Shown: positions 46,829 through 50,648 of the stretch, in pieces | Position numbering within the stretch: position 1 is the stretch's first letter | Layout: each line of letters opens with the position of its first letter | NCBI GenBank assembly: GCA_009380095.1 | Contig: WHSL01000013.1 | Coordinates: 1 to 50,768, forward strand | Reading direction: 5' to 3' | DNA from: Streptosporangiales bacterium | Lineage (GTDB): Bacteria; Actinomycetota; Actinomycetes; Streptosporangiales; Streptosporangiaceae | DNA length: 50,768 nucleotides | Program-made: the position numbers and the translations under genes | The notes under the pieces: generated by a model | Told to the model about the DNA's origin: nothing | The model's input: only the letters and a program-made list of their open reading frames with translations | Database searches by the model: none

Positions 46829-48325
46829 TCAGGGACGGCGGCGGGCCGGGATGGTCCCGGCGGCCAGGCGCGGAAGGAGGCGTTCGGCGGCGGCCAGGTC
46901 CGGGGTGAGCGGGCGGTCTCCGGCACCCTCCGGCAGGGCCGCCGCGACGGCCGCGTACAGCCGCCCGACCGGCGCCGGGGCCAGCGACTCCGGCGTCACC
47001 TCGCGCAGCCGCATCGCCCGCACCGCGCAGACCAGCTCGGCGGCCAGCACCGTACGGAGCGGCGCCACCGAGCCGGTGGTCAGCTCGGCGGCCAGCGGCG
47101 CGAAGCTCGCGTGGTCCTCCACGCCCTGGGACAGCACGACCGTGCCGAGCACCGCGGGCGCGGCGGCCTGACGGAGCCGGGACAGCGCGCCCTGGGACAC
47201 GTATTCCATGGTCATCGCGCCGGAGCTGCCCGCGGGGCCCTGCGCGAGGAACGCGGGCGCGCCGGACAGCTCGGGGTCGAGCAGCGCGGTCACCCGGGCC
47301 GCCGACAGCGACGCCGGGCCGAACAGGGCGAGCCGGAGCGAGTCCAGCGCGACCGCCAGGGGTGCGGCGTGCCAGTTCCCGTTGTGCAGCACGTCGCCGG
47401 AGATGACCAGCGGGTTCTCTGCCGCCGCGTTCAGCTCGATGAGCAGCGCGTCGTAGAGCCGGTGGGCCGCCTCCCAGGCCGGGCCGTGCACCTGCGGCAG
47501 CGCGCGCAGCCCGAACGGGTCCTGCACCCGCCGCGGCACCAGCGGCGCGCCGGCGAGCAGCGCGCGCAGCCGGGCCGCCGCCTCCGCCTGGCCCGGGTGC
47601 GGGCGGGCGCGGTGCACGCGGGGGTCGTACGCCTCGGTGTTGCCGGACAGCGCGACCACCGACAGCGCGCCGACCGCCTCCGCGGCGGTCAGCAGCTCCG
47701 ACAGGTCGAGCAGCGCCAACGCGGCCTCCGCCGTGGTGACCGCGTTGGAGGAGAGCAGCGGCAGCACGTCGGAGTCGCGCAGCCGGACCACCGGCGCGCC
47801 CCGGTCTCGCCACGGCGCGCCGCCGGACAGCGCCTGCCCCAGCTCGGCGAGCGCGGTCAGGTCGCCGGTGCCGAGCCCGCCGCCGCGGTGCAGCACCGGT
47901 ACGGCGCCGGCGCGGGCCGCGGCGGTCAGCGCGTCCACCACGGCCGGGGACACGCCGGAGCCGCCGGCGGCGAGCTGGTTGGCCCGTACGACGAGCGCGG
48001 CGCGGCCCACCTCGGCGGGGTACGGCTCCCCCGCGCCCGCGGTGTGGCTGTCCAGCAGCCGGCGGCCGTGGCCGGTGGGGTCGGCGGTGACGTCACGGTT
48101 GGCGCCGACGCCACTGTTGCGGCCGTACACGACCCGGCGGCGGGCGGCGGCCTCGGCCGCGGCGGCGGAGCGGGCCACCCGGCGGCGCGCGGTGGGCGAC
48201 AGCCGTACGCCGCTGCCGCGGCGCGCCACCGCCGCCACCGACTCCGGCGTGAGCGACCGGCCGTCCAGCTCCACCTCGGACATGAGGGAGCGCCGCGTCA
48301 CCGGTGGTGCCGCGTCGATGCTCAT
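46829..48325 (-). CDS. HAL/PAL-fold aromatic lyase-like protein with non-canonical MIO triad
   Basis: 498 residues of the histidine/phenylalanine ammonia-lyase fold. Compared with Pseudomonas histidine ammonia-lyase (numbers recalled): Tyr53 is Y67 (VVYGRNSGVG), His83 is H94 (DSHTAGAGEP), Gln277 is Q268, Arg283 is R274 (VQDPFGLRALPQVHG), Glu414 is E403 (SQGVEDHASF). The cofactor triad Ala-Ser-Gly is Gly152-Thr153-Gly154 (GGGLGTGDLTAL), Asn195 is Ser192 (PLLSSNAV), Tyr280 is Phe271 and Phe329 is Trp318. The scaffold is intact, so it is not a decayed gene. Whether MIO forms is doubtful. Start ATG 48325 with a GGGGGG ribosome-binding region. Last gene of an operator-controlled operon with a thiol dioxygenase and an amidohydrolase. 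Confidence 0.85.
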   Translation of the reverse strand: MSIDAAPPVTRRSLMSEVELDGRSLTPESVAAVARRGSGVRLSPTARRRVARSAAAAEAAARRRVVYGRNSGVGANRDVTADPTGHGRRLLDSHTAGAGEPYPAEVGRAALVVRANQLAAGGSGVSPAVVDALTAAARAGAVPVLHRGGGLGTGDLTALAELGQALSGGAPWRDRGAPVVRLRDSDVLPLLSSNAVTTAEAALALLDLSELLTAAEAVGALSVVALSGNTEAYDPRVHRARPHPGQAEAAARLRALLAGAPLVPRRVQDPFGLRALPQVHGPAWEAAHRLYDALLIELNAAAENPLVISGDVLHNGNWHAAPLAVALDSLRLALFGPASLSAARVTALLDPELSGAPAFLAQGPAGSSGAMTMEYVSQGALSRLRQAAAPAVLGTVVLSQGVEDHASFAPLAAELTTGSVAPLRTVLAAELVCAVRAMRLREVTPESLAPAPVGRLYAAVAAALPEGAGDRPLTPDLAAAERLLPRLAAGTIPARRRP

Positions 48326-48361: not shown

Positions 48362-48958
48362 TCACCGGACGTCTTCGAGCGGGCGCAGCTCGTCGGCGTA
48401 GGACACCGATACGCGCCGCAGCACGCCCGTACGGCTCAGCGCGTACTGGCCCATCCGCCACAGCGGCGGGGAGTACGCGTGGATGGACACGGCGGTCGCG
48501 CTGTGCCCGGTGAGCCGGTGGATGTGCTCCGGCCCGAAGCAGAACGCGTTGCCCTCCCCGACCACGGTGGCGAGCGTGGGCCTGCCGATCGCCAGGTTGT
48601 GTTCCACCAGCTCACCGGCGACCACGGCCACCGCTCCGGAGGATACGTCGTGATCGTGCCAGCCGGTGTCGTCCTGCGGGCGCCAGCACAGCAGCCAGAC
48701 GTCCACGTGCGCGTCCCGATGCAGGTTCGCGTAGTACCGGCCGGTCGCGTGCTCGTCGAAGGTGACCTCGCCGGCCCAGAGCTCGGGGCGCCGCGCCAGG
48801 GACACCGCGAGCCGGCGCAGCTCCCGCCGGTCCAGCTCGCGGCCTGGGAGGTCGCCGAGCTCGAGGCCAGCGGGCACGCCGGAGAACTTCATGGCGAGCT
48901 CCGCGGGAACCGGGTCGAACTCGGGGCCGGGGAAGGCGACGGCGTCGGCGGCGGTCAC
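48362..48958 (-). CDS. Cysteine dioxygenase family thiol dioxygenase
   Basis: 198-residue cupin that oxidises a thiol to a sulfinate with a single iron. The three-His site is WHDHDVSSGAV (H101, H103) and H147 in PEHIHRLTG. The typical SIHAYSPPLWRMGQY segment follows. Start GTG 48958 overlaps the amidohydrolase stop by 4 bp and has a perfect AAGGAGG six bases upstream, the best ribosome-binding site of the operon. The natural thiol could be cysteine, 3-mercaptopropionate or another small thiol; the operon partner suggests an unusual one. Confidence 0.9.
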   Translation of the reverse strand: MTAADAVAFPGPEFDPVPAELAMKFSGVPAGLELGDLPGRELDRRELRRLAVSLARRPELWAGEVTFDEHATGRYYANLHRDAHVDVWLLCWRPQDDTGWHDHDVSSGAVAVVAGELVEHNLAIGRPTLATVVGEGNAFCFGPEHIHRLTGHSATAVSIHAYSPPLWRMGQYALSRTGVLRRVSVSYADELRPLEDVR

Positions 48959-49914
48959 GGTTGTCCTCCTTCGAGCAGGCGCCGGGGGTTGCTCCGGCGG
49001 ATGGCGTGGGTGGCGGCGTCGCCGAGGCAGAGCTCGGCGGGTTCCGCGTACGGTCGGTCGGTGCCGTTGACGATCACATCGATGCCCAGCACGCGGGTGA
49101 GCGCGTCGATGCCCTGGCGGCCGTACGACGAGGTGTCGGCGAACACGCCGGGGTCGACGGTGAGCCGGCCGCCGCCGCGCGCGGCGTACCGCTCGTGGTG
49201 GACGGGCGCCAGGCCCGCGCCGGCCACGAAGCAGACCCGCAGGTCCGGGGCGACGTCGCGGCCGGCAACGTGCCAGCTCCACCAGGCGGCCTGGAGCTGG
49301 GCCACGTAGTCGACGACCGCGGCCCACCAGCCGGGGCGGTCCGCGGCGTCGCGCGCCGGGCCGGGGTGGATCATGACGGGCCTGCCGGCCGCGTCACAGG
49401 CCTGGAGGAGCGGGGCGAGGCGTTCCAGGTCCGCCGGTGCGGCGAGGGCGTCGGCGGGGAGCTGCAGCCCGGCGCAGCCGGCGTCGAGGGCGGCGGTCAC
49501 GGTCGCGGGGTCGGGTTCGCGGACGTTCGTCGCGGCCCAGACCCGGTACGGCTCGCCGAGCGCGAGGGCGCCCGCGTGCCAGGCGTCGATGAGCGGCTCG
49601 GCCTCCTCCGGCGGGAGCCACTCCAGCCCGAGCGGACTCGACGGGCCGATCACGATCACATCCGCCCCGCGGGCGGCGGTGCCGGCCCCACGCCCGGCGG
49701 GGCCGGTCTCGGCGGTGCCGGTGTCGGCGGTGCCGGTCTCGATGGCGAGGCGGCGGGCGGGGTCGTGGTCGGCGGGGTCGATCCGCTGGGCGGGTTCGCC
49801 GTTCAGGTGCAGGGTCCAGCCGTCGAGCCGTGGCGGCTTGGCACGGCGTCGCAGCGCCTCGATGAACTCGGCGGGCCAGAGGTGCTGGTGTACGTCGATG
49901 ATCGGGGGTTCCAA
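48955..49914 (-). CDS. Amidohydrolase-2 family metal-dependent hydrolase/decarboxylase
   Basis: 319 residues, TIM-barrel metalloenzyme of the ACMSD/amidohydrolase-2 type. Metal ligands: H9 and H11 (IIDVHQHLW), H183 (PVMIHPGP), probably H239/H240, and D286 (IVNGTDRPYAEP). A Thr/Gly/Ala-rich insert is at about 59-83. The only reasonable start is TTG 49914, with GGAAGG seven bases upstream; a stop lies six codons upstream in frame. The TTG and the adjacent operator imply low, regulated expression. First gene of the three-gene operon. Members hydrolyse amides or lactones or decarboxylate aromatic acids. Confidence 0.88.
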   Translation of the reverse strand: MEPPIIDVHQHLWPAEFIEALRRRAKPPRLDGWTLHLNGEPAQRIDPADHDPARRLAIETGTADTGTAETGPAGRGAGTAARGADVIVIGPSSPLGLEWLPPEEAEPLIDAWHAGALALGEPYRVWAATNVREPDPATVTAALDAGCAGLQLPADALAAPADLERLAPLLQACDAAGRPVMIHPGPARDAADRPGWWAAVVDYVAQLQAAWWSWHVAGRDVAPDLRVCFVAGAGLAPVHHERYAARGGGRLTVDPGVFADTSSYGRQGIDALTRVLGIDVIVNGTDRPYAEPAELCLGDAATHAIRRSNPRRLLEGGQP

Positions 49915-49930
49915 GTACCACCTTCCACTC

Positions 49931-49972
49931 GTTTAACCGGTTCACTGAACGGTTTCAGTGAACCGGTTAAAC
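49931..49972. promoter_or_regulatory. Operator: perfect inverted repeat, 18-bp arms
   Basis: Arms GTTTAACCGGTTCACTGA (49931-49948) and its exact reverse complement (49955-49972) flank ACGGTT. Each arm contains the palindrome AACCGGTT (49935-49942, 49961-49968; centres 26 bp apart). The middle TGAACGGTTTCA is a third, imperfect copy of the same box. AACCGGTT with a central CG is typical of LacI-family operators, though GntR or others cannot be excluded. It ends 4 bp from the ribosome-binding site of the amidohydrolase gene. A TTGACT (-35-like) lies just outside at 49986-49981, so binding would block the promoter. Confidence 0.8.
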
Positions 49973-50093: not shown

Positions 50094-50648
50094 ATGCGAG
50101 CAGAGGAGAACGTCAGGCTGACCCGGACCGGGCCGGGCACACCGGGCGGCGCCTGGATGCGCCGGTACTGGCAGCCGATCGCGCTCGCCGAGGAGCTGGA
50201 CGGCCTGCGCCCGCTGGTGACGCCACGGGTCCTCGGCCAGGATCTCGTGCTGTTCCGCGATGAGCGCGGCGAGCTGGGCCTCGTCGACCGGGGCTGCCCG
50301 CGCCGCGGCCACAACGCCTTCGCCACCGCGCCGCCGGCCGCCACCGCGCCGGACGGGCCAGGCAAGCCGGGCAAGCCGGGCGGGCGGGGCGGGCCCGGCG
50401 AGCCGGAGCCCGTGGGTGGGGCGCTGTCCGCGCACGGACGCGCGTACCTCGGCGGTCTCCTCGCCCACGCCCGCGGCGCGACCGCGTTCAGCACCCCCAC
50501 GATCAACGGCTACAAACGCTTCCGCCCGAACTCGCTGGCTCCCGACCGCGCGGTGTGGGGTCGCGACAACCGCCCGCTTCGAGCGCGAGGTCACCGACTG
50601 GGAGCACCGCGAGTACTTCCGCCTCTACTAGAGCGCGGCCGGCCGTGA
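50094..50648 (+). pseudogene. Chimeric remnant: Rieske oxygenase N-terminus joined to glutamine synthetase fragments
   Basis: Residues 1-~68 match the start of phthalate-type Rieske dioxygenases (RTGPGTPGGAWMRRYWQPIA, LGQDLVLFRDERG, LVDRGCP). At the cluster-binding CxH the frame reads CPRRGH, so the His is lost. From HNAFA (residue 73) to WGRDNR (160) it matches glutamine synthetase (ALSAHGRAYLGGLLAHA, STPTINGYKRFRPNSLAP), interrupted by a PGKPGKPGGRGG insert. After position ~50573 another junction changes frame: EVTDWEHREYFRLY, a GS-like C-terminus, is read in a different frame and stops at 50631. The ATG-started frame stops at 50648. At least two deletions are needed. Not a functional oxygenase or synthetase. 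Confidence 0.8.

Follow-up and report, generated by a model that had tools for sequence, protein, structure and literature searches.

The window, a 50,768-nucleotide stretch of DNA from a Streptosporangiales bacterium, encodes a HAL-fold lyase that is probably, at about two chances in three, a betaine lyase working without the MIO cofactor, a relative of ergothionase whose most likely substrate is hercynine (N-alpha-trimethylhistidine). Its gene is the last of a three-gene operon, following first an amidohydrolase and then a thiol dioxygenase (Table 1).

Table 1. Features of the proposed hercynine operon, in positions of the window
Feature	Position	Strand	Family, score or remark
Proposed hercynine trimethylamine-lyase (HAL fold, GTG clade), 498 aa	46829..48325	-	PF00221, 379.8 bits (cut-off 27.3)
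Alternative internal ATG start of the lyase, residue 15	48283	-	
G152-T153-G154 codons, shortened loop	47864..47872	-	Gly-Ala-Ser-Gly there in MIO enzymes
G72-V-G-A-N76 codons	48098..48112	-	GVGWN in ergothionase; GFG and other letters in canonical HutH rows
S192-S-N-A195 codons, Ser at the Asn195 position	47741..47752	-	S-C-N-A in ergothionase
Thiol dioxygenase, 8qfl type	48362..48958	-	PF05995
Amidohydro_2 protein (proposed ergothioneine-sulfinate desulfinase)	48955..49914	-	PF04909
LacI-type operator-like site CGGTTCACTGAACGG	49938..49952		1 mismatch to CGGTTCANTGAACCG
Second operator-like site GGTTTCAGTGAACCG	49951..49965		2 mismatches; offset of 13 bases from the first

The initial annotation of this DNA had reported that Gly152-Thr153-Gly154 stands in the lyase where related enzymes carry the self-cyclising Ala-Ser-Gly. 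These letters are present in the 498-residue ORF, and the HutH-type Ala/Cys-Ser-Gly triad, which cyclises to MIO, is absent. The change is not, however, a residue-for-residue swap: the protein reads GGLG-T-G-DL around the triad, and in an alignment with canonical enzymes Gly152 corresponds to the conserved Gly that precedes Ala-Ser-Gly, one residue is deleted, and the triad has become Thr-Gly. The annotation had named a sequencing error as an objection to its own reading; both this and a frameshift around the triad are ruled out, because the identical G-T-G-D motif recurs in other genomes and the frame has a third-position GC content of 0.96. On the HutH equivalog model TIGR01225 the lyase scores 303.2 bits, below the cut-off of 539.15.

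The shortened loop is shared by a large group of proteins. Among 33 loci, made up of three from the window's own genome and the 30 best of a whole-protein search covering that genome and its relatives, 18 carry G-T-G-D (two of them being the window's own gene), 14 carry ASG or CSG, and the remaining one is a divergent paralogue of another kind. A tree of 52 selected proteins, built with the motif columns included, places all 36 shortened-loop proteins (two of which read GTSD) together, separated from canonical HutH by a branch with an SH-aLRT of 99; with the motif columns removed, a tree of 32 proteins joins the clade and an Arthrobacter protein (T-A-D) with support of 100/100. The annotation's question whether Ala-Ser-Gly occurs within the same clade was answered in the sample chosen by similarity, in which no member has it. 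A single-protein query against genome contigs found no relative; a pattern-and-profile scan of named genomes found many, with at least 541 stretches encoding relatives, of which 80 loci were kept, among them loci of Kribbella, Streptomyces, Amycolatopsis and Pseudonocardia. GTGD is present in 92 of 107 aligned rows (the window counted twice), most of which come from the scan that had GTGDL among its patterns, so conservation of the motif itself was judged on the similarity-chosen loci; the alignment leaves out the five of 98 loci at which no lyase gene was called. The loop variants seen are TGD, TSD, TAD, EGD, EAD and QAD, the third loop residue being Ser in two loci (L098 and L123) and Ala in Arthrobacter.

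Within the 92 GTG rows, the loop Thr is always present, the equivalents of Tyr53, His83, Gln277 and Arg283 are invariant, and that of Glu414 is found in 91, with a gap in the remaining one. The window lyase carries these five as Tyr67, His94, Gln268, Arg274 and Glu403, in agreement with the annotation, which had listed them as retained. It had also named two active-site changes. The replacement of Asn195 by Ser (Ser192 in the lyase) is borne out, as all 92 rows have Ser at this position and ergothionase has it too. The replacement of Tyr280 by Phe is correct for the lyase itself (Phe271) but is not a feature of the clade, in which Phe occurs in 70 rows and Tyr in 22. A dead paralogue is thought unlikely, since the active-site residues are invariant except at position 280. 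The size of the clade and the retention of the substrate-binding residues support the annotation's view that the scaffold is under selection, and the placement of the clade on one branch, together with a loop shortening in common with ergothionase, supports, at the level of sequence, its suggestion of an altered or missing MIO and possibly a different chemistry. The clade is a large bacterial family, so far uncharacterised, whose members are predicted to do without the built-in catalytic group of related enzymes and probably break down hercynine.

Two further observations were made within the clade. The locus L090 was found in a metagenome bin labelled Candidatus Saccharibacteria and is possibly a misbinned actinobacterial contig. 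In addition, several members (in genomes G022, G032, G040, G122, G148 and G188) contain one TGA or TAG codon inside the matched stretch.

The lyase resembles HutH (EC 4.3.1.3) in its PF00221 fold and in the five retained residues, but it differs from HutH in having neither Ala-Ser-Gly nor Cys-Ser-Gly, in the loss of Asn195, and in a score far under that required of curated HutH. Ergothionase (the ergothioneine trimethylamine-lyase of Treponema denticola, PDB 6s7j) is like the lyase in its HAL fold, in having one residue fewer in the loop that replaces the MIO triad, in the motif GVGxN, and in the motif S-x-N-A, whose Ser occupies the Asn195 position; its loop, G-E-G-D, has Glu where the lyase has Thr153, and the two proteins share 26-27% identity. 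With a profile of the loop region, 6s7j is the second match and aligns without a gap (SIGEGDI versus AIGTGDL), whereas the lyase chain 9eq5, which has an explicit Ala-Ser-Gly, needs an insertion in the loop alignment; a longer profile aligns GVGWN of 6s7j with GVGAN, and S-C-N-A with S-S-N-A. The branch uniting the clade, ergothionase-like rows and 6s7j has support of 87/83, with 6s7j entered as a fragment covering 27% of the columns. Homologues from Paracoccus (E-A-D) and from a Sinorhizobium plasmid (Q-A-D) keep the ergothionase-type features. Whole-protein comparisons give a different order, HAL scoring 172.6 bits and ergothionase 124.1 bits.

An AlphaFold2 model of the lyase (27 sequences; pLDDT 90.9, pTM 0.91) matched 6s7j first in Foldseek, with an E-value of 2.9e-29, and HAL next with 1.0e-28, which is a small margin. 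The VIA-align 2 Z scores (43.1 for tyrosine aminomutase, 42.2 for HAL 7tqr and 42.0 for ergothionase 6s7j) are not separable, and with values so nearly equal the rank of the fold was rejected as a means of discriminating among ergothionase, HAL and aminomutase.

Departure of trimethylammonium without an MIO is general chemistry, and it is the mechanism of ergothionase. One paper describes ergothionase as lacking MIO (PMC13405746), and another reports that phenylalanine ammonia-lyase loses practically all activity on phenylalanine when the Ser of its triad is changed to Ala (PMC3903478). Because the lyase fails the tests for HutH, and because its loop residue and gene context differ from those of 6s7j, the clade is regarded as a variant of the ergothionase-like kind, which probably works as ergothionase does on another substrate.

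Within the operon, the GTG start of the dioxygenase gene overlaps the stop of the amidohydrolase gene (GTGA), and 36 bases separate the dioxygenase gene from the start of the lyase gene. The dioxygenase scores 231 to 235 bits against the group of 8qfl, versus at most 29.3 bits for the other 21 of the 25 matched chains. 8qfl is labelled a cysteine dioxygenase in the PDB table and is presumably the ergothioneine dioxygenase of Thermocatellispora tengchongensis; the paper on it, from the Seebeck group in 2024, reportedly also describes a metal-dependent ergothioneine-sulfinate desulfinase that yields hercynine. The CDO-like dioxygenase and the metal-dependent amidohydrolase of the window match the types of that actinobacterial pair, and since the pathway so described stops at hercynine, the window lyase would be the next step. 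The amidohydrolase has a weak match to the decarboxylase 4hk5 (E 0.00077); its gene adjoins a dioxygenase match in all six loci examined, the dioxygenase of L136 having been left uncalled by the gene caller. (It should be noted that a review uses "ergothioneine dioxygenase" for the step that yields trimethylamine (PMC11818489), which is taken for a mix-up with ergothionase.) The ORF at 50094-50648, at the end of the contig, joins what by eye is a Rieske-like N-terminus to a piece of glutamine synthetase (PF00120); a gene fusion, decay and an assembly joint are all consistent with it.

The two operator-like sites in front of the amidohydrolase gene have counterparts elsewhere. In 12 of 13 loci (those holding a LacI, amidohydrolase or dioxygenase gene), the palindrome CGGTTCANTGAACCG, with at most two mismatches, stands where the amidohydrolase or dioxygenase gene begins, giving 18 sites versus 0.4 expected from single-base shuffles, a count that is partly circular because the consensus was derived from three of the counted loci (L042, L046 and L086). 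The pattern occurs at 16 sites per strand in the window's own genome versus 7 for a reversed control, and single operator-like sites therefore mean little. A LacI gene of one cluster flanks the lyase gene in 12 of the 98 loci; an orthologue of it, with 53% identity, lies on another contig (C225) of the window's own genome.

The association of lyase and dioxygenase extends through the family of the window organism. Among 150 genomes of this family, 58 have a clade lyase (called by profile score, at least 364 bits, the next match having at most 331) and 71 have an 8qfl-type dioxygenase. The dioxygenase is present in 49 of the 58 lyase genomes, and in 42 of these the two genes are at most 12 kb apart; nine lyase genomes have no dioxygenase, and 22 of the 71 dioxygenase genomes have no lyase. 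The association has a Fisher p of 1.4e-13 when kinship is ignored; at the level of genera, both genes are found in 19 of 27 and lie within 12 kb in 16. Canonical HutH served as a control. Among the matches listed, 43 genomes have it together with the dioxygenase; the two are at most 12 kb apart in 8 of them, and seven of these eight also carry the lyase. Of 31 genomes that have both canonical HutH and the lyase among the matches listed, 12 have them no more than 25 kb apart. These HutH counts, taken from 90 listed genomes, are lower bounds. Outside the family, 17 genomes of the named loci gave a dioxygenase of at least 207 bits in six and of 156 bits in one more.

In the proposed pathway, the dioxygenase would oxidise ergothioneine to its sulfinic acid and the amidohydrolase would convert ergothioneine sulfinic acid to hercynine and SO2. 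The lyase would then act on hercynine by 1,2-elimination to give urocanate and trimethylamine, with Tyr67, His94, Gln268, Arg274 and Glu403 predicted to grip the imidazole and the carboxylate and to abstract the beta proton. The MIO electrophile would be dispensable because a quaternary trimethylammonium group leaves far more readily than ammonia, and once it was dispensable the triad could have been shortened to Thr-Gly; the protein itself is thus predicted to contain no MIO. The urocanate would pass into the Hut pathway, for which the window's own genome has HutH and HutU together on another contig (C294). A search of the literature, with subscription journals mostly outside its reach, found no hercynine lyase and no naming of the GTG clade.

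Gene neighbourhoods were compared at the 98 loci, which include the five without a called lyase. A urocanase or HutF gene is present in 20, all of which hold urocanase; a betaine-type transporter gene lies in the flank of 25, and an amidohydrolase or dioxygenase gene in that of 12. In 60 of the 98, Hut, transporter and dioxygenase/amidohydrolase context are all absent from the examined flank. Canonical HutH also flanks the lyase in 11 of the 20 urocanase loci (ten of them from Kribbella), and the HutU there may therefore serve HutH alone. Model scores were obtained for five of these 20 urocanases (L036, L050, L082, L100 and L129), and all five are HutU, with 895 to 931 bits and a cut-off of 375; on the thiourocanate hydratase model they reach 644 to 670 bits, under its cut-off of 930. 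The HutU of L100 adjoins a canonical HutH, and the transporter ATPase of this locus is nearest to ProV, at a score under the ProV cut-off; the binding protein of L036 has similar scores to Lmo1422, ProX, OsmF and EgtUC.

Genes of ergothioneine biosynthesis are found near the lyase at some loci. In two Actinoallomurus loci (L086 and L100) they lie between the lyase and LacI genes on one side and the amidohydrolase gene on the other, as EgtB and EgtA in L086 (EgtA scoring 369.1 bits, just below the cut-off of 370.8) and as EgtA, EgtC and EgtD in L100. In the genome G001, EgtD adjoins the dioxygenase near the lyase; this genome has the lyase and no urocanase match, and the fate of the product therefore differs between genomes. 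EgtD is above its cut-off in 11 of 11 lyase genomes tested. In the window's own genome, a match to the EgtD family (PF10017) stands close to EgtA, and a class III lanthionine synthetase (LanKC) is encoded in the neighbourhood of both (L153:5650-8286, on C216).

The main rival to hercynine as substrate is ergothioneine or its sulfinate. The lyase would then be an actinobacterial ergothionase, converting ergothioneine or its sulfinic or sulfonic acid to thiourocanate (or an oxidised form of it) and trimethylamine, a reading that is possible though distinctly the less probable. The loop deletion, GVGxN and S-x-N-A held in common with 6s7j speak for it, as do the ergothioneine genes that surround the lyase at some loci; yet the five flanking urocanases score as HutU rather than as thiourocanate hydratases, and the upstream enzymes, if rightly named, would strip the sulfur before the lyase step. 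The operon with dioxygenase and amidohydrolase, and HutU at some loci, also set the lyase apart from ergothionase. Where ergothionase has its loop Glu, the 92 GTG rows have Thr, but the Paracoccus E-A-D homologue adjoins a true HutU, and Glu alone therefore does not fix the substrate. (This homologue is encoded on a plasmid of Paracoccus saliphilus (L166:5770-7458), directly behind hutH, hutG and the hutU, and proteobacterial hut operons may thus have a hercynine or ergothioneine lyase of their own.) It is improbable, on the other hand, that the protein cleaves some other betaine or an N-methylated histidine, or that it has no lyase activity and serves as a binding scaffold. Such a reading would fit the 60 loci whose flanks hold none of the expected genes, the absence of the dioxygenase from most of the 17 genomes tested outside the family, and another divergent HAL paralogue of the window's own genome, whose gene likewise adjoins a betaine transporter; conservation of the active-site residues over long divergence counts against a dead scaffold, however, and the operon in the window organism's family points to hercynine rather than to another betaine.

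It is very unlikely that the protein acts as a histidine ammonia-lyase by means of an unusual cofactor, formed by cyclisation of Gly152-Thr153-Gly154 and dehydration of the Thr to an ethylidene-imidazolone. Gly-Thr-Gly could cyclise in principle, and the histidine-binding residues of HAL are kept, but the loop is one residue short, its third residue is Ser or Ala in some relatives, Asn195 is lost, and ergothionase, with a loop of equal length, is reported to be without MIO. Canonical HutH, by score, accompanies the lyase in 19 of 21 genomes examined, and simple replacement of HutH is accordingly unsupported for most of them. Actinomycetospora termitidis (G063, locus L082) was left as a candidate for it: it has EgtD as well as the GTG lyase with HutU and HutF beside it, and this genome, of unstated completeness, gave no other PF00221 protein and no dioxygenase match, a context that would also suit an ammonia-lyase with the unusual cofactor. 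Since the lyase is the sole PF00221 protein found together with HutU, HutF and EgtD, the genome therefore allows histidine breakdown by way of prior methylation. It is conceivable, if rather doubtful, that some actinobacteria degrade histidine without MIO in this manner, EgtD trimethylating the amino group and the GTG lyase expelling trimethylamine to leave urocanate for HutU.

Other divergent HAL-fold proteins were seen alongside the clade. The window's own genome encodes three PF00221 proteins, namely the canonical HutH, the window lyase and a divergent one on C93 (L003; L154:8297-9913). The triad of this third protein reads G-S-A-G-E, with the middle Ser lost, and Arg, Gln and Val stand for His83, Asn195 and Tyr280; its gene and an operon for a ProV-type betaine ABC transporter are divergently arranged, and the protein is a candidate for a second MIO-less betaine lyase in the genome. 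In Sciscionella (L074:9175-10989 and L087:9301-10992), a second HAL-fold gene overlaps the end of the called GTG gene; its loop reads GSVGYLGP, with no Asp after the triad, and Asn195 is kept. This copy was rejected as an ergothionase, HAL chains being better matches to it.

Taken together, these comparisons favour a hercynine lyase, and if this is true, the large actinobacterial HutH-like group to which the window protein belongs (at least 541 stretches) would consist of MIO-free betaine lyases, not of histidine ammonia-lyases. Oxidative ergothioneine breakdown stops at hercynine, and the lyase would bridge the gap between it and the Hut pathway. The group would also be a bacterial source of trimethylamine besides ergothionase, and it would provide a natural test of the need for MIO in ammonia lyases, in which a new leaving group was taken up and the cofactor was lost.
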